A DNA stretch of 56,784 nt from Nitrospirota bacterium (GTDB taxonomy: Bacteria > Nitrospirota > Thermodesulfovibrionia > Thermodesulfovibrionales > Dissulfurispiraceae): positions 1 to 56,784 of the forward strand of contig JAFGXL010000022.1 in the NCBI GenBank assembly GCA_016936655.1. The letters run 5' to 3'. Numbering within the stretch: position 1 is the first letter of the stretch; the number at the start of each line of letters is the position of its first letter. The notes under the pieces are model-generated. The model saw only the letters and a list, made by a program, of their open reading frames with translations, ran no database searches and was not told where the DNA came from. A program made the position numbers and the translations under genes. Shown one piece after another: positions 1-56,484 of this stretch.

Positions 1-837
1 GCTCTGTATAAATTCGTTCTCCTGCTCGATACGAGCTTTAAACTCTTCCTTATGGATTTGTTCAAAACCGAGTCCTGAAAAAAGATCCTGATGCTTTTGC
101 GTCCATTCAGAATCTGAGGTGAACTCCGGAGCTGTTTCAGAAACAACACCTTCTGCTAGATACACAAGAGTGACTATGCCCTTGTGTCTGGCATCCTGAT
201 CTAAGCGGTGATGATTATGCACTGATGAGACGATCTCTTCCGGAAAAGAAAGCTGCTCAAGGAACCACTCGCCAGCCTGGCTATGTGTGCATCCAAAATT
301 CTGAATCTCTGCAGCTTCAAGATCCTCGTCATGCAAGGCACTAATTTGTGCATGAATCTCTCTGTAATTATCTGCTGCATAATGTTTGAGAAGTACAATC
401 CTTCCGATATCATGAAGCAGCCCGCTAAGGAAGCAGACATTTCTGTTGCTTACAGGCACGTTCTTGCAGAACATCTCAGCCATTACAGCAACACAGTAGG
501 AATGAACCCAGAGTTTTTTAAGTTTCTTTGGATCAACATTAAAAGAATGAAATATCGAAACTCCAAGCGCTATGCTCTTGGCAAGATTAAAACCGAGCAT
601 AAGAAGAGCCTGTTCAATACTGTTTATGCGGCCGGGGTATCCGAAAAATGGGGAATTAGCAACCCCGACGACTCGTTCGGCAAGCGATTGATCAAATTTT
701 ATAATTTCTGACAGCTCATTCAGAGATGCGTTCTCTTTGTTCAGAAGCTTTACCAGTCTCAGAGAAACCTGTGACAGAGTCGGGATGTCTTTCATCCTGC
801 TTATAGATTTTTTCAGCTCAATAATTCTGTTATCCAT
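1..837 (-). CDS. HDOD-domain signalling protein (3' end cut by window edge)
   Basis: The reading frame begins with ATG at 837 and stays open to base 1, giving 279 residues without a stop, so the C-terminus lies outside the window. The N-terminal part resembles HDOD domains: a conserved hydrophobic pattern with NSPFFG near residues 61-66, then LLHDIGR with the His-Asp pair at residues 142-143 and an NHH near residue 220. HDOD proteins are non-catalytic relatives of HD phosphohydrolases and usually take part in signalling or cell-cycle control; the exact role here is unknown. The start overlaps the stop of the upstream histidine kinase by 8 bp, so the two are probably translationally coupled and may act in one pathway. 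A second HDOD gene lies at the other end of the window. Confidence 0.85.
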   Translation of the reverse strand, partial: MDNRIIELKKSISRMKDIPTLSQVSLRLVKLLNKENASLNELSEIIKFDQSLAERVVGVANSPFFGYPGRINSIEQALLMLGFNLAKSIALGVSIFHSFNVDPKKLKKLWVHSYCVAVMAEMFCKNVPVSNRNVCFLSGLLHDIGRIVLLKHYAADNYREIHAQISALHDEDLEAAEIQNFGCTHSQAGEWFLEQLSFPEEIVSSVHNHHRLDQDARHKGIVTLVYLAEGVVSETAPEFTSDSEWTQKHQDLFSGLGFEQIHKEEFKARIEQENEFIQS

Positions 838-1978
838 GTCTGTCTCCGTAGATTACTCTTTTGATATCTTCAATTCCAAACGGTTTTCTAAGAACAGGTA
901 TGCTGAAATTATTCTTTATCACCCTGTCTTCAAGCGTTATATCAGCTGTTGTGAATACAAAATTCTGCGGAAATACATACGCAGTAGCCCTATTTATAAA
1001 ATCTATAATTCCTACATTGTCTGAATTATAATCCACAAAAACAAAATCAAACAACTCTGACTTTATATGTTTTAAAGCGGTTTCTGTGTTATTTACGCAT
1101 ACAACATCACAGCCGGCAGCATCAAGCATCGCAGCCATCGCCTCAGACACAAGGGCTGAAGGCTCAACAACAATAACTTTTTTAGCCTTGTCAGATTCGC
1201 CCCTGTGCGGAGCAAGGAGGTTTAATTGAGGATCAACAACAGGCAGCTTGATTGTAAGCTTTGCGCCTCTGCCTGATGAATAGACCTCTATACTGCCTCC
1301 ATGTTCAATTATAACACCATGCGAGATACTCAACCCAAGTCCTGTTCCATCTTTCTTTGTTGTGAAAAATGGCATAAAAACCTTGTCTATATTTTCCTTG
1401 CTTATCCCTTCACCAGTATCTGATATATGAATCTCTGCCAGGCTATTGACCCTTTTAACAGTTACTTCAAGATGCTTCTGGCTGTCAGATTCAGCCATCG
1501 ACTGGATAGCATTCATTAACAGATTAAATAGTACCTGCTGAAGCTTGTAGTAATCACCGTTGACATAAATGGGCTGTTCTGAAAGACAAAGTGATTTTGC
1601 AATGCGTCCTGTCTTGATGTGGTAGTCAAAAAGATCTAATGTGTGCAGAACAACTTCATTCAGATCAACCTGGCTGAATGACATCTTATCCTTGCGTAGG
1701 AAGATGAGAAGACCTTCAACTATCTTTGCTGATCTTATAGCTGCAGACTGGATGTTATCTATATACCGCTGCGCCTGCTGATCAATCTCCATAGCCTGGA
1801 GCACCTGTGCGAAACCGATTACTGCTGCGAGAGGATTGTTAAGTTCGTGAATAATGTTGGAGATTAATTCATTTAGTGAAGAATTGTTGTCTGTACGTTT
1901 ATTGTCAGCCTTTTTTACATGTCTGCCAATCTCGCTGGTCATAAGAAAATCAGGACCCCCAATGTATGTTATTATCAA
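830..1978 (-). CDS. Hybrid sensor histidine kinase with C-terminal receiver domain
   Basis: A soluble histidine kinase of 382 residues. The phospho-accepting H-box HELNNPL (His44) is followed by an N-box (QVLFNLLMNAIQ), a G1 box (DTGEGIS) and a G2 box (GTGLGLS), so all catalytic parts are present. The last ~120 residues form a receiver-like domain with Asp316 (FVFVDYN) and Lys365 (LRKPF); its N-terminal acidic pair is reduced to one Glu. There is no transmembrane or PAS sensor domain, so it probably senses through a partner protein. An alternative start at 1942 (MTSEIG) has a G-rich stretch upstream and may be the true one. It overlaps the HDOD gene at 837, which suggests that protein is a partner or downstream element. 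Confidence 0.88.
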   Translation of the reverse strand: MIITYIGGPDFLMTSEIGRHVKKADNKRTDNNSSLNELISNIIHELNNPLAAVIGFAQVLQAMEIDQQAQRYIDNIQSAAIRSAKIVEGLLIFLRKDKMSFSQVDLNEVVLHTLDLFDYHIKTGRIAKSLCLSEQPIYVNGDYYKLQQVLFNLLMNAIQSMAESDSQKHLEVTVKRVNSLAEIHISDTGEGISKENIDKVFMPFFTTKKDGTGLGLSISHGVIIEHGGSIEVYSSGRGAKLTIKLPVVDPQLNLLAPHRGESDKAKKVIVVEPSALVSEAMAAMLDAAGCDVVCVNNTETALKHIKSELFDFVFVDYNSDNVGIIDFINRATAYVFPQNFVFTTADITLEDRVIKNNFSIPVLRKPFGIEDIKRVIYGDRHG

Positions 1979-21964: not shown

Positions 21965-23374
21965 CTATAAACTTTTAGTTAAAGAATCTATTTTCTGGTC
22001 AAACTGAATCTTATTCTTGTTTGCGCTGCCTGCAACAGTAACAGTAGTCTTGCCCTTTTCCTCAGCTACATGCACCCATATCCTGCGGTGGCTCATGAAG
22101 AATGCTGCATAAAGTCCAACAGCCATAAACAGGCACCCGAGATAGACCAGCCATACACCGGGGTCTTTTCTCACCTGCAAACCTGTGTACTGAACGCCCC
22201 ATATATCAAGAAGCTGGATAGAACCAAAAGGAGTCTTCCATGTCTCTGGGAACCTCTTTAGCACCCATTGTTTATGAACTGTCTTGCCTGCCTCTGAAAA
22301 CTCTATAAAGGCAGCAGGATTGTTCATCTGGTTGGAGTATGTAAAAAGCTCTCCGGTTTTATTATCTATTCCTACCGCCGGACTATAGTCAACAACCTTT
22401 CCCTTGATCTTTGTGCCGGGCACATCAAAAGACTGATCCAACCCCACAGACACATCCTGGCTGCTTCCTGCGCCCTGCGCATAAACCTTCATCTTAAATT
22501 TGGAATTAGCTATATTGTCAGGGTTAAAAAAGTAGCTGGCCTGATAGAATACAACCCCCTTATACCTGAGAGGATCGTTGACGCTGATCTGTTTTTTAAG
22601 CACCTCTTTGTTGTTCTCTATCACAACAAGATTGCTTACATAAGACTTAGGTGTATCCGTATCATCATAAAAAGAGACATCAAAATCATCGCATCTTACA
22701 CTAAACTCAAGAGGTATTTTAGATCCGTCTCTGGATTCTATGGATGAGGCTGTTCCGCCCTCAGGAAGAGCGAGATAGCCATCAAAACCGAAGAATTTAC
22801 CTTCTATTCCCCCCATCATTATCAACAGTATGCTGAGATGCGTTACATAAACACCAAGCCTGCTGTATCTGCCTTTTTCAGAGTATATCTGACCTGACTT
22901 TCCATCAGTAAGCACATTACTAAACCCTATTTTTTTGAGTTCAGCAGTGACTGAAGATACAGTATCCTCGAGTTTTCCCTTTACCTGAATCTGAGGTCTC
23001 ACTATCATTGATTTAAAGATCTCAGGCTCAATAGGCCTTATCGGAGTCTTTGCGAGTTTCCATATCCCCGGCAATCTGTCTATTGAACAGATGACCAAGT
23101 TTACAGCAAAAATGAAGAGAAGCGCGAGAAACCACCATGAACGGTACATATCTGTAAAACCCATTGCATTTATAACCTTAAACACAGCAGGAGCTGAATC
23201 GCCAAAAACTTTAGTGAGCATCTTGATATTGCGCTCAGGCTCAACCTGCTGCTGGATAAGTGTGCCAGCTATGGAGGTTACAGATATAAGAGTAAAAACC
23301 ACTACCGCCAGTTTAATAGAAGTCAGGATATTCCATATCCTGTCCACTATGCCCTGACTCTTTTTATCTTCCAC
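21965..23374 (-). CDS. resB: Cytochrome c biogenesis protein ResB
   Basis: A 469-residue ResB/Ccs1-family protein. Two to three membrane segments in the first ~100 residues, a fourth near 175-190, a large periplasmic domain, and a last helix around 405-425 (GCLFMAVGLYAAFF) fit the family. The RYSRLGVYVTHLSILLIMMGG segment carries the conserved heme-related His. It partners CcsA in System II assembly of c-type cytochromes. The start codon is GTG with GGGGAGGG upstream. No thioredoxin-like ResA lies nearby. Confidence 0.93.
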   Translation of the reverse strand: MEDKKSQGIVDRIWNILTSIKLAVVVFTLISVTSIAGTLIQQQVEPERNIKMLTKVFGDSAPAVFKVINAMGFTDMYRSWWFLALLFIFAVNLVICSIDRLPGIWKLAKTPIRPIEPEIFKSMIVRPQIQVKGKLEDTVSSVTAELKKIGFSNVLTDGKSGQIYSEKGRYSRLGVYVTHLSILLIMMGGIEGKFFGFDGYLALPEGGTASSIESRDGSKIPLEFSVRCDDFDVSFYDDTDTPKSYVSNLVVIENNKEVLKKQISVNDPLRYKGVVFYQASYFFNPDNIANSKFKMKVYAQGAGSSQDVSVGLDQSFDVPGTKIKGKVVDYSPAVGIDNKTGELFTYSNQMNNPAAFIEFSEAGKTVHKQWVLKRFPETWKTPFGSIQLLDIWGVQYTGLQVRKDPGVWLVYLGCLFMAVGLYAAFFMSHRRIWVHVAEEKGKTTVTVAGSANKNKIQFDQKIDSLTKSL

Positions 23375-23546: not shown

Positions 23547-25358
23547 TTATGCGCTGTCCAAAGATATGACAGCAGTAACTACAAGACCTTTGTTCTTAAG
23601 GTTTTCGACAATCAACCTGCCAGATAGCTGAAGAGCTGCTGCTCGTGCTAAAGCGAGCTCAATATTATTTATGTCATTGAATCCGCCCTGCTCAAAAATT
23701 TCAGCAGCTTCATCATCAAGCCCCTTGCCGGTGTCAGCCACAACTATCTCAAGAGCAGCAGAGCCTGCTTCAGCAGATGAGGCTCTTGAAACAAGCAGAG
23801 ATACTGTGCCTGCATCAGTATTAGCAACTGAGTTTTTTATGAGGCTCAAAACCATTTTTTTAATAAGGTTAGCATCAGCGCATATTTGTGATCCATCTTC
23901 ACAGCTGATCAGATCGCTTACAAATGTCAGTTGCTTGGCTGTGGTTATAGATTCAGCTTCTCTGCTTAAATCATTAAAGAAAGAAGAGAGGTCAAACCGC
24001 TCAGGCGTTAAATTTTGGGGTTCAACTATTGTCTTAGCCATGCTTCTGAGAGAGCCGGAAAAAGATTCGAGCTGGTCAGACATATTAGATATAAATTTTA
24101 TTGCTGACCTTCCAGCATTCTGGTCCTGATAGTTCAGCATAAGCGCATCTGACTTTTTCTTCATCTGGCTTGAACTGTTTTTTAATACTGAAGATACCTG
24201 TTCTAAAAGCTCCTTGCTATCCTGAGCAGCCCTTTTTGCCTTAAGTCTATCATCCTGTTTATTCTGTTGCTCAGTAACAAGTTCTATCAATTCATATATT
24301 TCGTTCTTTATTGAACTTAGTTCACCTCTGCATTTTATATCTCCTGCAATGAAAGCATCGCCGTTTCGGTACGCTCTGATAGAAGATGCAAGATCTCTAA
24401 GAGGCAGCGAAACAAGGTTGTTAAACCTATACAAAATAAAAATAATTATCATACCCAAAAGAACGAGTATGCTTAAGTAGCATATTGTTATCAGTCGCAT
24501 TGCAGAGGAGGTCTCTGACCTGCTGACCTTCACAAATATGTTTAAAGGAGCGTGCTGCAGCTTGCTTATCGTTGTATAAAACCTGCCGCTCTCTGGAGCA
24601 TCTTTTTCTGACGATGCTGAACCAAAATCTGGCAGACCAAATACGACCCTGCCTGACTGGTCTGTTAGAGATACACTCAGACTTCTGAATTGGGGCTTCT
24701 CAGCTTTAATAAGCGCAAGCAGCCTTGTTGTATCTATCTGGCCAAAGAGCAGGCCGTTAACATTCCCATCAGCATCTGCAACAGGCACTATCATCTCAAC
24801 GCTCCTGTCTACTGAGGAACCTGTAAGTCTGACCAGAGGATCTTTAAGACTCTTTATATCCTGAGTTACAAATCTGAGGCTGCTCCATTCAGAACCGATG
24901 ATTTCTGCATCAGTAGATGCGATGACAGTTCCGTCATTATGTATCAGTGAAATAGCCCTGTAACCGAGTACAGACCTTTCTTTAAGAAGGCTAGATATAG
25001 ATTCCTGCATCTCTGAACGGGCAGAGCGGCTGAGCACCCTGCGGCGGGCTGCAGCTCCTTTTTTTGATGCATCCTCAACTCCCAGATGAAGGGTATTAAA
25101 CTTTATCAAGGGATGATTCGAGATAATCTCCAGATCTGAAGTCCTTTCACTGAACCATGAGTCTATTGATGACTTCTTCTCTGCAGATACTGCTGCAATA
25201 TACGCAGCTTCAGGAGTTCTAATATGAGAAAACTCCGGCATTATATAAAATGCTCCGCCAGCACAAACTAAAACAATAAATATAAAAATAAGCGGCCAGA
25301 TGAGCACTCTGGTCGCAATTCTGCCTGAAAAGTCTTTATTATCTGAGCTTTTTCCCAT
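23547..25358 (-). CDS. Membrane sensor kinase-like protein, catalytically degenerate
   Basis: A 603-residue protein: N-terminal membrane helix (residues 18-38), a periplasmic double-Cache-like sensor (about 45-280), a second helix (about 290-312), a HAMP-like linker and a GHKL ATPase-like domain at the C-terminus. The ATPase domain keeps an N-box Asn (LSLIKNSVAN) and a G1-like DTGKGLDD, but the G2 box is absent and the expected dimerisation helix (about 400-440) has no H-box histidine. It may signal by conformation rather than phosphotransfer. GGAG before ATG 25358 gives the start. It lies 39 bp downstream of a diguanylate cyclase whose receiver is also degenerate. Confidence 0.82.
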   Translation of the reverse strand: MGKSSDNKDFSGRIATRVLIWPLIFIFIVLVCAGGAFYIMPEFSHIRTPEAAYIAAVSAEKKSSIDSWFSERTSDLEIISNHPLIKFNTLHLGVEDASKKGAAARRRVLSRSARSEMQESISSLLKERSVLGYRAISLIHNDGTVIASTDAEIIGSEWSSLRFVTQDIKSLKDPLVRLTGSSVDRSVEMIVPVADADGNVNGLLFGQIDTTRLLALIKAEKPQFRSLSVSLTDQSGRVVFGLPDFGSASSEKDAPESGRFYTTISKLQHAPLNIFVKVSRSETSSAMRLITICYLSILVLLGMIIIFILYRFNNLVSLPLRDLASSIRAYRNGDAFIAGDIKCRGELSSIKNEIYELIELVTEQQNKQDDRLKAKRAAQDSKELLEQVSSVLKNSSSQMKKKSDALMLNYQDQNAGRSAIKFISNMSDQLESFSGSLRSMAKTIVEPQNLTPERFDLSSFFNDLSREAESITTAKQLTFVSDLISCEDGSQICADANLIKKMVLSLIKNSVANTDAGTVSLLVSRASSAEAGSAALEIVVADTGKGLDDEAAEIFEQGGFNDINNIELALARAAALQLSGRLIVENLKNKGLVVTAVISLDSA

Positions 25359-25397
25359 TGATATCTCCGGAGATTTTAAAAATTAGAGAATAATTTT

Positions 25398-26303
25398 TCA
25401 GGCTGTTATCTCGTCAAAAATTGCTACGGTTTTATTTCGTCCGCCCTCTTTTGCCTTGTAGAGCGCCTCGTCAGCCCTTGATATTAGCTTGTCTATTGAC
25501 GGCTCCATTCCCTCGGAAAATATTGTGAGGCCCTGGCTAATTGTTACAGGGATTCCCTTGTCCAGATCCTGACAGACAAAAGGCTTGTTCAGAAAAGCGC
25601 ACCTTATCCTTTCGCATACAGAAAGAGCGCTGTCCCCGTTTGTGTTGGGCATAAGGAGTATAAACTCTTCTCCTCCGTATCTGGCAGCTATATCCTCAGT
25701 GCGCACAGCAAGAGATATCCTCTTTGCTGCCTGCTTTAAAACTTCATCACCACAGCTATGGCCATAGGTATCATTTATTCTTTTAAAAAAATCTATATCC
25801 ATGATTACAACAGAAAAAGGCTCGTTATACCTAACAGCCCACGCTATCTCTTCATTGAATCTCTCCATAAAGAATTTTCTGTTATAAAGCCCTGTAAGAT
25901 AGTCCCTGTCGAGCATCTTCTCAAGGTCATGCACACGGTCATTAACATAAGATATGTTCTTGATCCTGGCTGCAATCTCGGCAGGGAAGAACGGTTCGGA
26001 TACATAGTCAAAGATGCCGAATTCATAACAGGTTTTTATTATTTTTTTGCATCTTCTTGAAGATATAAGAATTATCGGAATGTCCCTTGTAGATGGAGCT
26101 GATTTTAGTTTGCGAACTATCTCTGCAACTCCAGGGTTTGGCATATCAGTGCCGAGCATTATAAGCTCAGGATTGTCAGCATAGACCCTATCAAAAATTA
26201 TCTCTGGCTTTTCGATGAGCAAATATTCATGCCCTGCGTCATCAAGTATATCGCATAGTACGCAGTTAAACTTTGATGCCTTATGTACAATCATCACTTT
26301 CAT
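25398..26303 (-). CDS. Diguanylate cyclase with pseudo-receiver domain
   Basis: A 301-residue protein with a receiver-like domain (1-120) and a GGDEF domain (130-301). The active-site signature is GGEEF at 210-214, and an RxxD inhibitory site (R201-D204) stands five residues before it, so the protein should make c-di-GMP and be product-inhibited. The receiver domain lacks the N-terminal acidic pair, has Gly51 where the phospho-acceptor Asp is expected and Glu103 in place of the conserved Lys, so it probably cannot be phosphorylated. It heads a two-gene unit with the degenerate kinase-like protein at 23547-25358. Confidence 0.9.
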   Translation of the reverse strand: MKVMIVHKASKFNCVLCDILDDAGHEYLLIEKPEIIFDRVYADNPELIMLGTDMPNPGVAEIVRKLKSAPSTRDIPIILISSRRCKKIIKTCYEFGIFDYVSEPFFPAEIAARIKNISYVNDRVHDLEKMLDRDYLTGLYNRKFFMERFNEEIAWAVRYNEPFSVVIMDIDFFKRINDTYGHSCGDEVLKQAAKRISLAVRTEDIAARYGGEEFILLMPNTNGDSALSVCERIRCAFLNKPFVCQDLDKGIPVTISQGLTIFSEGMEPSIDKLISRADEALYKAKEGGRNKTVAIFDEITA

Positions 26304-26348: not shown

Positions 26349-27845
26349 CTAGTTTAAAAGGGTTTTAAGAAGAGCCTCTGCCTTTTTTATTGTTTCATTA
26401 TATTCACGGTCAGGATCAGAGTCCGCTACAATTCCTGCTCCAGCCTGTATATATGCTGTGGCGTCCTTTATGGCAAAGGTTCTGATAACAATATTGAGAT
26501 CCATATTGCCGTTAAACCCAATATATCCGAAAGAGCCGCAGTATGGCCCTCTTCTTACAGGCTCAAGCTCGTCAATTATCTGCATACATCTTACTTTTGG
26601 CACTCCGGTTATTGTGCCGCCTGGGAATACCGCCTTTATAGCATTAAATGCAGTTCTGCCTACCATCAACTCTCCACGAACATTTGATACAATGTGCATT
26701 ACATGCGAATAGTCCTCAGTAATCATTAGCTCATCAACATTCACAGTGCCATATCTGCAAACACGTCCTATATCATTTCTTTCTAGATCAATAAGCATTA
26801 TATGCTCTGCCCTCTCCTTTTCATTAAGCAGAAGCTCAGCCCTTAGTCCTTCATCTTCAGATTTGCTGCGCCCCCTGGGCCTTGTGCCTGCTATAGGCCT
26901 GGTATCGATAATATTGCCTCTTAAGCGTACCAGCCTCTCCGGGGAAGAGCTCACAAGCTTCAGCTCCCCAAGATCTGCATAAAGCCCAAATGGCGAAGGA
27001 TTTATGGATGTCAATTTTCTGTATATATGCCATGGATCTGTCTCCCCAATATCTGCTCTTATTCTTTGAGACAGGTTGGCCTGAAATATGTCTCCTGCAG
27101 CTATGTAATCTTTTGCCCTCATTACCATATTTTTAAAATAATCCTTCGACATCTCAAAAAAAGGCTCTGATGTGCTTACACAAAATTTATTCGGCTGCTC
27201 AGAAGCTGAGACGCAGAGACTTTTTAGGCTATTAATCCTCATCAATGCCTCATCATATGCACTTGAAAGATCATTCTCATTAATGTCTCTGTATCCCAGT
27301 TCTGTCATGGAGGCTGCAGGAGCAGCGATTATCCATGCCCTTGCTTCATAGTGATCATATGCCACAACAAGATCAACCATAATGAAAACAGCATCAGGAA
27401 TGCCAATATCATCAGCAGCATACAGACTTATATCTTCAACATACCTCACAAAGTCATAAGAAAACAGCCCAACAGCTCCGCCCTGAAACGGCGGCAGCCC
27501 TGAAACAGGCGACTGTTTGTAGGAGTTTACGATCTCAGATAGTCTGTCCAGAGGATTTCTGAATGATACAGAACTCCTCGACCCGGCAAGAGAAGTTATA
27601 GATACCTCGCCATCTTTTACACAATAGAAAATATAAGGATCAATACATATGAAAGAGTATCTCGAAATGGGGGATACACCACCGGAGCTCTGAAGCAGCA
27701 CAGAGTATTTTCCAGCAGCGCCTGAGTTTTTAAGGTGTTCATAAAGGTCTGAAGGATTAAGGCAATCTATCTCAAGATATATTGGCGGAATATTGCCTGA
27801 TCCAGCTTTTTTGATAAATTCGGTTTTGGTGATCAATGAATGCAT
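26349..27845 (-). CDS. pabB: Aminodeoxychorismate synthase component I
   Basis: Chorismate-binding enzyme of 498 residues. The C-terminal catalytic half has GDIFQANLSQR, the PabB-type sequence (TrpE usually has AVPSQ), then SSPERLV, DTRPIAGTRPRG, LIDLERNDIGR, FPGGTITGVPK and IQAGAGIVADS. It makes 4-amino-4-deoxychorismate for folate. The N-terminal half contains LLQSSG where TrpE has the LLES inhibition site, again favouring PabB, although anthranilate synthase activity cannot be excluded. A TTG lies one codon before ATG 27845; the ATG is chosen. No pabA or pabC is in the window. Confidence 0.88.
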   Translation of the reverse strand: MHSLITKTEFIKKAGSGNIPPIYLEIDCLNPSDLYEHLKNSGAAGKYSVLLQSSGGVSPISRYSFICIDPYIFYCVKDGEVSITSLAGSRSSVSFRNPLDRLSEIVNSYKQSPVSGLPPFQGGAVGLFSYDFVRYVEDISLYAADDIGIPDAVFIMVDLVVAYDHYEARAWIIAAPAASMTELGYRDINENDLSSAYDEALMRINSLKSLCVSASEQPNKFCVSTSEPFFEMSKDYFKNMVMRAKDYIAAGDIFQANLSQRIRADIGETDPWHIYRKLTSINPSPFGLYADLGELKLVSSSPERLVRLRGNIIDTRPIAGTRPRGRSKSEDEGLRAELLLNEKERAEHIMLIDLERNDIGRVCRYGTVNVDELMITEDYSHVMHIVSNVRGELMVGRTAFNAIKAVFPGGTITGVPKVRCMQIIDELEPVRRGPYCGSFGYIGFNGNMDLNIVIRTFAIKDATAYIQAGAGIVADSDPDREYNETIKKAEALLKTLLN

Positions 27846-27893
27846 CAATTATTTTAAGGCAGAAGCGCATTAATTGAAAAGCATAAATCAAAA

Positions 27894-54074: not shown

Positions 54075-55634
54075 TTAGTGTGCTGCGACCATGTTAACAA
54101 ATATGGATACCAGTGACGGGTCAAACTGTGTGCCTGCTCCTTTTTTAAGCTCCTGAACAGCCTCATCAACAGTTAGTCCTGCCCTGTATGGCCTGTCTGA
54201 CCTCATAGCCTCATATGCATCAGCTATGCATAAAATTCTGGCCTCGAGATTAATCTCGTCGGCCTTGAGGCCGTCCGGATATCCTGTGCCGTCATACTTT
54301 TCGTGGTGATGTCTTATAATCGGGATTATCTCTTTCAACGGGTTGAGCGGCAGCAGTATTTCTGCGCTATGTATGGGATGCATCTTTATCATATGCAGGT
54401 CTTCATCACTCAGCTTGCCCTGTTTGTCAACAATATTTTCATATGTGTTGATCTTGCCGACATCATGCAGCAGAGCTGCTATTCTGAGCCTCTGGAGCGC
54501 ATCTTTCTTAAGTCCTACAACGGTGCCGAACTTTATAACGCAATCTGCTACGCGTATTGTGTGGCCTTCTGTCCATTTGGACTTCGAATCCATTGCAGAT
54601 ATAAGGGTTGTTACTGTGCCTATGAATATATCTTCAAAATCTTCCATAAGCTTTGCATCCTGAAGAGCAACGCTCACCTGCGTGGCGATCTTCTCCATTG
54701 TCTGGACATGATCTTTTGTAAACCATGCTGCCCTTACGCTCGAGAGCACCATGACTCCAAAAGGTTTGTCCTGAAAGCTGAGAGGCAGGCAGAGATATGA
54801 AAACACATTCTTCTCAGCAGCCCATTCTGCCATGAAGGGATAGATGGTGAAGTCCTCTGTAACATCGCTCTGATAATGCGGCTTGCCTATCTGGAGCACT
54901 TTGTAAAAGGGGGATTCGTCTCTGCATATGCGCCTGCCCACATCAAGCGCAGTGCCCCATCCTGTAACGACCTCAAGCTCATTATCATCAACAAAGGCGA
55001 TCATTGCGCCGTCACAAGGAATAACTCTTCTTATAAGCTGTACTACGGAACCGACTATATCCTTTGTCTTAAGACTGGAGAGCATCTCTTTGCCTATCTC
55101 GTTTATCAGATGAAGGGTCTCTATCTTGTGCATTAAGTTGCCTTCAAGCTCTATAAAGTGCTTGTTAAGCCTGATGCTTTCAAAACCCATGCCCGTTATT
55201 GATGCAATGCCCTGAAGCAGAGTTTCGCTAGAGCTGTCAAAAGAGGTGGAAAAAGAAACTATTACAGCAACAGGATCAGCGCTGGCAAATACAGGACAAA
55301 TTATCGCAGATGCCTCTGGCGATTCCTGCGCTATAGGATGCGGCAGGCTTCTTATTGTGAGCGGAGATTTGTTTAAAACAGTATGCCTGAAAAAATCTGA
55401 GCAGCATTTGTCGCAGTATGAGGCTGTGAATTCAAGCTTCTTTTCTCTTGAGACGCCTGAAACTGAAGAAACTACAAACTCATTGGATTCATTTATAATC
55501 AGAACCAATGCGATCTCTGCAGTGAGTGAAGATGTTATAAGGTCTGCAACAGAAGCAGACAATTCTGTTGCGTTTTTTGCTGATACAACTACTGAAGAGA
55601 GCTTGTTGACCAGTTCAGCAGACTGCTTATCCAT
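54075..55634 (-). CDS. GAF-domain HD-GYP phosphodiesterase-like protein
   Basis: A 519-residue protein. Two N-terminal regions of GAF type (about 20-160 and 165-325) precede an HD-GYP domain with LLHDVGKINT (His390-Asp391), then MHPIHS, IRHHHEKYDGTGYPDGL and ADAYEAMRSDRPYR. The complete motif set predicts c-di-GMP hydrolysis. ATG 55634 has GGAG six bases upstream and overlaps the stop of the preceding HDOD gene by 8 bp. Part of a three-gene signalling operon. Confidence 0.94.
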   Translation of the reverse strand: MDKQSAELVNKLSSVVVSAKNATELSASVADLITSSLTAEIALVLIINESNEFVVSSVSGVSREKKLEFTASYCDKCCSDFFRHTVLNKSPLTIRSLPHPIAQESPEASAIICPVFASADPVAVIVSFSTSFDSSSETLLQGIASITGMGFESIRLNKHFIELEGNLMHKIETLHLINEIGKEMLSSLKTKDIVGSVVQLIRRVIPCDGAMIAFVDDNELEVVTGWGTALDVGRRICRDESPFYKVLQIGKPHYQSDVTEDFTIYPFMAEWAAEKNVFSYLCLPLSFQDKPFGVMVLSSVRAAWFTKDHVQTMEKIATQVSVALQDAKLMEDFEDIFIGTVTTLISAMDSKSKWTEGHTIRVADCVIKFGTVVGLKKDALQRLRIAALLHDVGKINTYENIVDKQGKLSDEDLHMIKMHPIHSAEILLPLNPLKEIIPIIRHHHEKYDGTGYPDGLKADEINLEARILCIADAYEAMRSDRPYRAGLTVDEAVQELKKGAGTQFDPSLVSIFVNMVAAH

Positions 55635-56484
55635 TTGATACTCCACTGATATAAATTTTAAGCGCTGGATCAGACTCTACAACATCCATCACATCAGAGA
55701 CTATATCTGTTATGTCATTTTCAAGAGAATTCATAGCCTTGAGGCATTCAGGGTCAAACGGCACAATATAAGGATCTGATCCGTATGTTATGCCAATAGC
55801 CTTTGATACAATATCAGATAAATGAACAATTGATACGGCCTTGATATTATCCCCGGCTTCTGACGGCCTGTGGTGAAATCTGATTATCTCCTTTATTATG
55901 GGAGGAAAGTTCCATACTTCAGCCAGCCACCAACCAATCTCGTCATGCCCCTTGCCAAGAATAGCCTTTTCAGCCTCGAGCATATTCATTTTTTTGCTGG
56001 TCACTATGTCGTTCAGATAAACCATCTCTTCCTTAAGGTATCTGTGCAGAAGCACCTTGCCTATGTCATGCAGCAGAGCGCCTGTCATAAGCTCTTCTAT
56101 CGTTATCAGGTTATACCTTCTGGCCAGGAGTCCGGCAACTGCTGATGTGCAGTAGGAATGATCCCACATGCCGGGCATCTCATCCTCAGCTCCTCTGAAG
56201 AGTGATGTACTCAATATTATGCCTCTTATCAGATTAGCTCCAAGCAGTATAACTCCTCTTCTTACTGAGGCTACTTTGTTGTTAAGTCCGTAGGATGGAG
56301 AGTTCACAAGCTTAAGCACCTTTGACGATAGCACATGGTCTTTTTCTATTAGTCCAGAGACCTCTTCGACTGAGTAGTTTATGTCTTCAATAATTTTAAG
56401 TATCCTGTTGTGTACGGACGGGATGGTCGGCAGATCCTTTATCTCGATCCTCTTGTCGCCGATTTTAAGAAATTCACCGGGCAT
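55627..56484 (-). CDS. HDOD-domain signalling protein
   Basis: A 285-residue HDOD protein. It has LVNSPSYGL near residues 57-65 and LLHDIGKVLLHRY (His-Asp around 144-145), and RFHHRPSE near 215. It probably serves as a regulatory protein for the HD-GYP partner; the upstream small gene's stop overlaps its start by one base. Similar in layout to the HDOD gene at the start of the window. Confidence 0.92.
   Translation of the reverse strand: MPGEFLKIGDKRIEIKDLPTIPSVHNRILKIIEDINYSVEEVSGLIEKDHVLSSKVLKLVNSPSYGLNNKVASVRRGVILLGANLIRGIILSTSLFRGAEDEMPGMWDHSYCTSAVAGLLARRYNLITIEELMTGALLHDIGKVLLHRYLKEEMVYLNDIVTSKKMNMLEAEKAILGKGHDEIGWWLAEVWNFPPIIKEIIRFHHRPSEAGDNIKAVSIVHLSDIVSKAIGITYGSDPYIVPFDPECLKAMNSLENDITDIVSDVMDVVESDPALKIYISGVSNG

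Follow-up and report, generated by a model that had tools for sequence, protein, structure and literature searches.

Separate decay of phosphotransfer residues, as suggested by sequence, in a pseudo-receiver diguanylate cyclase and its pseudokinase neighbour in a Nitrospirota bacterium

Two adjacent genes in a Nitrospirota genome encode proteins built like two-component partners, and both have lost residues of phosphotransfer. Did they lose them together, as a pair that came to signal by direct contact, which a sequence-only reading of the locus had proposed, or did each decay on its own? The stretch analysed is the ORF pair at 23547-26303 of a 56,784-nt window, the window being the whole stretch of DNA under study. 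Both ORFs are genuine and lie where that reading had placed them. They encode a diguanylate cyclase (DGC) and a kinase-like protein (HK), are separated by 39 bp on the minus strand, and are sandwiched by genes that, from sequence and prior knowledge, we take to be trpE and a Ccs1/ResB-CcsA cytochrome c biogenesis pair (Table 1). The compared genomes (labelled G000 etc.) belong to one order, with 31 in the window's own family (f1), and the numbers are small. Elsewhere in the window, positions 830-1978 (minus strand) encode a histidine kinase in which both HisKA and HATPase_c are clearly matched, so ordinary kinases are also present in this genome. Near the other end, a GAF-HD_5 (HD-GYP-like) protein (54075-55646, minus strand) is followed by an HDOD protein on the same strand (55627-56484); these could be c-di-GMP turnover genes.

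Table 1. Features of the locus, in window positions.
Feature	Position	Strand	Basis
Rec-GGDEF diguanylate cyclase (DGC) with predicted pseudo-receiver, 301 aa	25398..26303	-	Pfam, AF2, Foldseek
Pseudo-receiver domain, residues 1-118	25950..26303	-	Response_reg 33.8 bits; 4/5 catalytic residues missing
H7 K8 replacing acidic pair	26280..26285	-	alignment
G51 replacing phospho-accepting Asp	26151..26153	-	alignment
Alpha3-beta4 segment KSAPSTRDIP, residues 67-76, nearly invariant family signature	26076..26105	-	entropy
E103 replacing conserved Lys	25995..25997	-	alignment
Alpha5 coiled-coil linker, residues 119-132, DgcR length; R123 at first 'd'	25908..25949	-	alignment, AF2
GGDEF domain, residues 134-294; GGEEF 210-214 and I-site RTED 201-204 intact	25422..25904	-	Pfam, alignment
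dCache-HAMP-(DHp)-CA predicted pseudo-histidine kinase (HK), 603 aa	23547..25358	-	sequence, Pfam
Periplasmic dCache sensor domain, residues 56-256	24591..25193	-	dCache_1 39.9 bits, under cut-off
DHp-equivalent helical region, no His, ~residues 366-450	24009..24263	-	alignment; no HisKA match
HATPase_c (CA) domain, residues 495-600; N509, DTGKG kept, G2 replaced	23559..23876	-	Pfam, alignment
trpE (presumed), upstream neighbour in conserved gene order	26349..27848	-	synteny in relatives
Ccs1/ResB-like cytochrome c biogenesis gene (presumed), downstream of HK in most relatives	21965..23374	-	synteny

Phosphorylation pocket and dimer face of the cyclase

The DGC matches the Pfam families Response_reg (33.8 bits, cut-off 30.2) and GGDEF (159 bits). 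As the sequence-only reading had it, alignment places H7 and K8, G51 and E103 where a canonical response regulator carries its acidic pair, phospho-accepting Asp and Lys; Ser81 is retained at the Thr/Ser position, so four of the five receiver catalytic residues are missing. The outside comparison set consists of 25 full-length Rec-GGDEFs from other bacteria, taken from a contig scan in which the DGC alignment found general Rec-GGDEFs only, and in it the four changed sites are occupied by D/E, D, D and K, each in 25/25 sequences, so the losses in the DGC receiver go beyond ordinary variation. Chance or a frameshift was considered as their cause and ruled out, as the ORFs are intact and the orthologue in G024 shares the losses. 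The fold is retained. With outside homologues as input, AF2 gave a model (pLDDT 93.2) that has complete Rec and GGDEF folds and a single unbroken alpha5 helix (107-132) that runs into the cyclase domain; Foldseek aligned it with native DgcR (6zxb) at TM 0.87/0.89, and among PDB chains PleD gives the best profile match (256 bits), over a stretch (~155-449) that covers its second receiver and GGDEF domain. The receiver thus scores above the PF00072 cut-off, shows the full alternating fold in the model (pLDDT 93) and lacks four catalytic residues, which fits the definition of a pseudo-receiver (PsR) in PMC12632262. In the output domain, GGEEF fits the GG(D/E)EF signature and RTED, five residues ahead of it, the RxxD inhibition site; GGEEF, R201 and D204 are invariant, and both motifs intact, in all orthologues scored. 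The sequence features examined consistently indicate a pseudo-receiver diguanylate cyclase, an already known kind of protein.

What the cyclase has kept outside the pocket bears on how it might work. DgcR receivers form a constitutive dimer through the alpha4-beta5-alpha5 face, where D104 and R118 make a salt bridge; activation moves the coiled-coil register from a-d to a-e (PMC8041772). The two proteins align without gaps from the salt-bridge site to the DxLT motif, so positions transfer directly, with D99 and R113 equivalent to D104 and R118. D99 and R113 are invariant in 16/16 orthologues and present in 25/25 and 24/25 ordinary Rec-GGDEFs, which indicates that the interface was retained rather than specially selected. 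At the start of the linker, the first 'd' position of the inactive register is Arg or Lys in 18/18 sequences (the four outside linkers of equal length being too few to call this unusual) and the first 'e' position of the active register is hydrophobic in 15/18; the second heptad fits either register. The residues of the first heptad would favour the active register, and hence lean towards constitutive activity.

Variation among the 16 orthologues is concentrated in the phosphorylation pocket. No receiver elements vary more than the beta1-alpha1 and beta3-alpha3 loops, with entropies of 2.12 and 2.14 bits against 1.02 and 1.35 in the outside Rec-GGDEFs, whereas all remaining elements except beta3 vary less than in the outside set. 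The extreme case is alpha3-beta4, where residues 69-76 have an entropy of 0.15 bits compared with 2.08 outside, and the motif APSxR[ED]IP recurs in most sampled orthologues of another family, f10. Because the pseudo-receiver FrzS binds its partner through an alpha3-beta4-alpha4 surface (PMC12632262), this patch could, by analogy, be a docking site for a partner. No DGC orthologue has the full receiver catalytic set. The Asp is still present in 10/16, so that some phosphorylation could persist in those lineages.

The cyclase also occurs without the HK. Orthologues in f10 lie beside dcd-pyrF and, in most of the loci read, have no HK there; no full-length relative of the HK was found in f10. Sampled f10 receivers lack the acidic pair and the Lys, and several keep the Asp. 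Altogether, pseudo-receiver DGCs were found where the HK is absent in f10, g7 and g11. Three individual matches deserve mention: that in G009 was rejected as an orthologue owing to its canonical receiver, that in G028 runs off the contig end, and that in G020 is split into two frames (L090 6041-6998, minus strand), either broken or mis-assembled, with no HK in the slot.

The kinase-like neighbour and its family

The HK has two transmembrane helices, a dCache sensor (dCache_1, 39.9 bits, just below the cut-off of 45) and a kinase-like cytoplasmic half with an above-threshold HATPase_c match (31 bits); no Pfam match to HisKA was obtained. Its only histidines, at positions 45, 82, 91, 140 and 269, are all N-terminal to the second transmembrane helix. 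A residue overlooked by the sequence-only reading was sought in the cytoplasmic half, and none is present; S390 aligns with the H-box His of the G011 protein. The G2 site reads INNIELAL (563-570), so that reading was also right about the missing G2 box. Of the features of a canonical HisKA kinase, the H-box His and G2 box are therefore absent, and the N box (N509) and G1 box (DTGKG, 542-546) are present; as far as motifs can tell, the protein is not fully stripped and should retain these parts of its nucleotide-binding site. RetS (93 bits) and DivL (88 bits) are among the best solved relatives of the family profile, RetS serving here as a relative in fold. A HisKA-related fold without a phosphoacceptor His is the mark of a pseudo-histidine kinase, and by this mark the HK appears to be one of the DivL/RetS kind. 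An AF2 model from the single sequence reached pLDDT 40 and was set aside.

With catalytic residues missing in both partners, ordinary phosphotransfer is impossible for the window pair, as had been claimed. Neither protein is fit for His-Asp chemistry, so any signalling between them must be phosphorylation-independent.

How the HK reached this state can be followed in its 23 family members. dCache_1 is detected in 21/23, HATPase_c in 23/23 and HisKA in 11/23, and DTGxG is nearly invariant. None of the 23 has a G2-box GxG, of which the final Gly is kept in about half, so that G2 decay seems to predate loss of the His. The H-box His is gone in most lineages, replaced by S, G, R, W, P, D, K, V or T; the losses amount to three changes on the tree if regain is allowed and to about nine, counted by hand, if it is not, with an alignment that is uncertain across the DHp region for the most divergent members. 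A His in G024 (LHNAAES) was not counted, being three residues off the H-box column and without a following acidic residue. From the HK genes of G013 (L077 5071-6711, minus strand) and G014 (L078 7449-9095, minus strand) the DHp has been removed by in-frame deletions of 192 bp and 162 bp; the deletion ends differ, the Cache domain, HAMP region and CA domain are retained in both, and the two deletions are independent. The sister of G013, G011 (99% SH-aLRT; 92% HK identity), keeps MSHELRN. Of all genes at the locus, the HK evolves fastest in each of the pairs compared, with 37% identity between two congeners against 68–90% for neighbouring genes. Its frames are nonetheless long and open in more than 20 genomes (about 550–640 aa in most), with dN/dS of 0.11–0.22 (with saturation of dS in some pairs). 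The HK is fading as a kinase, yet its ORF is under purifying selection.

Distribution of the two genes and of their losses

Among the families searched, full-length HKs occur only in the window's own; most of them occupy the slot upstream of ccs1, and this shared slot supports their orthology despite identities of 20–25%. The HKs of G006, G008 and G025 lie outside ccs1 synteny, and a contig scan with the HK alone found no relative. The alignment of the HKs shows no conserved stretch that could serve for such a scan. The DGC adjoins the HK in eight genomes of three genera (G000, G024, G011-G016) and lies away from it in another set (G017, G019, G022, G023, G029, G030, G031, G035); a scan of the genes next to the relocated DGC in G017, G030, G022/G023 and G035 found no kinase. 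A chemoreceptor is encoded on the opposite strand near the DGC of G017. Across the 31 genomes of the family, 16 have both genes, seven the HK only, three the DGC only and five neither, although gene absences may reflect incomplete assemblies. Co-presence is not significant (Fisher p 0.21, or 0.58 in genomes at least 90% complete).

The 16 genomes with both genes allow the two losses to be compared directly, with receiver Asp states entered by hand. A kinase without His accompanies a receiver with Asp in seven (G017, G019, G030, G031, G035, G015, G016), and in two (G013, G014) the receiver has its Asp beside a kinase without a DHp. Four have neither residue, two have the His and no Asp, as in G012 (VSHELRA), and one has both. 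All four combinations thus occur, with no association between His and Asp states (Fisher p 0.52, a descriptive value that treats genomes as independent when the states follow phylogeny); the double loss in G000 and G024 was counted as one lineage. Checking orthologues for co-occurring losses, as the sequence-only reading had suggested, therefore turned up degeneracy of single partners, and its proposal of co-evolved loss in a dedicated pair is not supported, given the unlinked losses and the broken receivers of HK-free f10. In the relatives, the DGC and the HK lost these residues separately. Direct contact between the two proteins is possible.

Which explanation fits best? That the HK steers the DGC by touching its pseudo-receiver, the two having shed their phosphotransfer residues jointly, we consider quite improbable. 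The short intergenic distance on one strand, the adjacency that recurs in G024 and G011-G016 and could, across eight genomes and three genera, reflect a real functional link there, the degeneracy of both partners in G000 and G024, and the precedent of DivL-DivK for contact between a pseudokinase and a receiver (PMC4211667) all speak for it. Against it, the losses are unlinked over orthologues, each gene occurs without the other (pseudo-receiver DGCs in f10, g7 and g11 and in three genomes of the window's family; HKs without a DGC orthologue in the four syntenic genomes G018, G026, G027 and G033), and the nearly invariant DGC patch is common to lineages without the HK. The DHp is the usual receiver-docking surface of a histidine kinase and its usual dimerisation part, and G013 and G014 have deleted it with the DGC still adjacent. 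These deletions also weigh against a second proposal, to which we give little credence, in which the HK, unrelated to the DGC, dimerises with or modulates another, active histidine kinase. RetS reportedly acts through contact. Its place and that of DivL among the best solved relatives, contact as the mode of action of DivL (PMC4211667), the active-looking hybrid kinase that adjoins the HK in G030/G031 and the HisKA kinase in G006 would suit this proposal; no kinase neighbour, however, is constant across genomes. It is similarly unlikely that the HK is drifting to loss with little function, kept by its position inside a conserved operon. Its rapid divergence, the variety of residues that replace the His and the two DHp deletions are what drift would produce, but long open frames, low dN/dS and the near-universal dCache, HATPase_c and DTGxG are not. 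A further, doubtful reading is that in dCache pseudokinases the DHp is dispensable and a HAMP-coupled ATPase fold signals by contact, the alpha3-beta4 patch of the adjacent DGC docking a partner; loss would then have run from the G2 box to the His and, in two lineages, to the whole DHp.

The account that we regard as fairly probable is that a PleD/DgcR-like cyclase, whose pseudo-receiver serves as a phosphorylation-independent dimerisation or docking module, sits beside a DivL/RetS-like pseudokinase. The DGC family would be vertically inherited, its phosphorylation pocket eroding as the alpha4-beta5-alpha5 face and fixed-length linker were kept. The DGC would most likely be a constitutive dimer through that face and make c-di-GMP without phosphorylation, limited by product at the RxxD site, with output probably set by expression level or by protein docking on the alpha3-beta4 patch. 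The membrane-bound dCache pseudokinase, which occurs in a single bacterial family, would no longer donate phosphoryl groups and, given its absence from the other families searched, may have arisen in or entered the operon separately. That the receiver broke independently of the HK is suggested by the want of any orthologue with the full set and by broken f10 receivers without a full-length HK. On present sequences, then, the two look like a known kind of phosphorylation-free enzyme beside a slowly decaying sensor, not a matched pair.

The switching of pseudo-receivers between on and off states has been described as an open question (PMC12632262). The DGC family offers a natural series for it, orthologues with and without the Asp and Lys whose dimer face and linker have not changed, and the kinase-fold neighbours offer another, with the His, without it and without the DHp, including the near-identical species pair G011/G013. 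The locus also carries a caution: adjacency and joint degeneracy in one genome mimicked co-evolution, and relatives revealed independent losses.

Likeness to known systems

The two proteins resemble characterised systems in part. Like PleD of Caulobacter, the DGC joins a pseudo-receiver (in PleD the non-phosphorylated second receiver) to an active-type GGDEF domain with an I-site, but PleD has an extra, phosphorylatable first receiver that drives dimerisation and the window DGC has none. DgcR of Leptospira shares the single Rec-GGDEF architecture and domain order, the ungapped linker and the salt-bridge pair; it is activated by phosphorylation of D56, whereas the DGC has a Gly there and neither acidic pair nor Lys. 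With the class of aspartate-less and pseudo-receivers (ALR/PsR) it has the missing catalytic residues in common, and an enrichment of ALRs on GGDEF proteins has been reported (PMC4395418). It differs in being a cyclase, the largest ALR group being DNA-binding regulators (PMC4395418) and characterised pseudo-receivers mostly orphans (PMC12632262). DivL, for which an absence of kinase activity and binding of DivK~P have been demonstrated (PMC4211667), has a Tyr where the His would be, and the HK likewise lacks the His on what appears to be the HisKA-type DHp and HATPase fold of DivL and RetS. Unlike them, the HK has neither a PAS array nor a receiver, carries a dCache membrane sensor and belongs to a family in which the whole DHp can be deleted.
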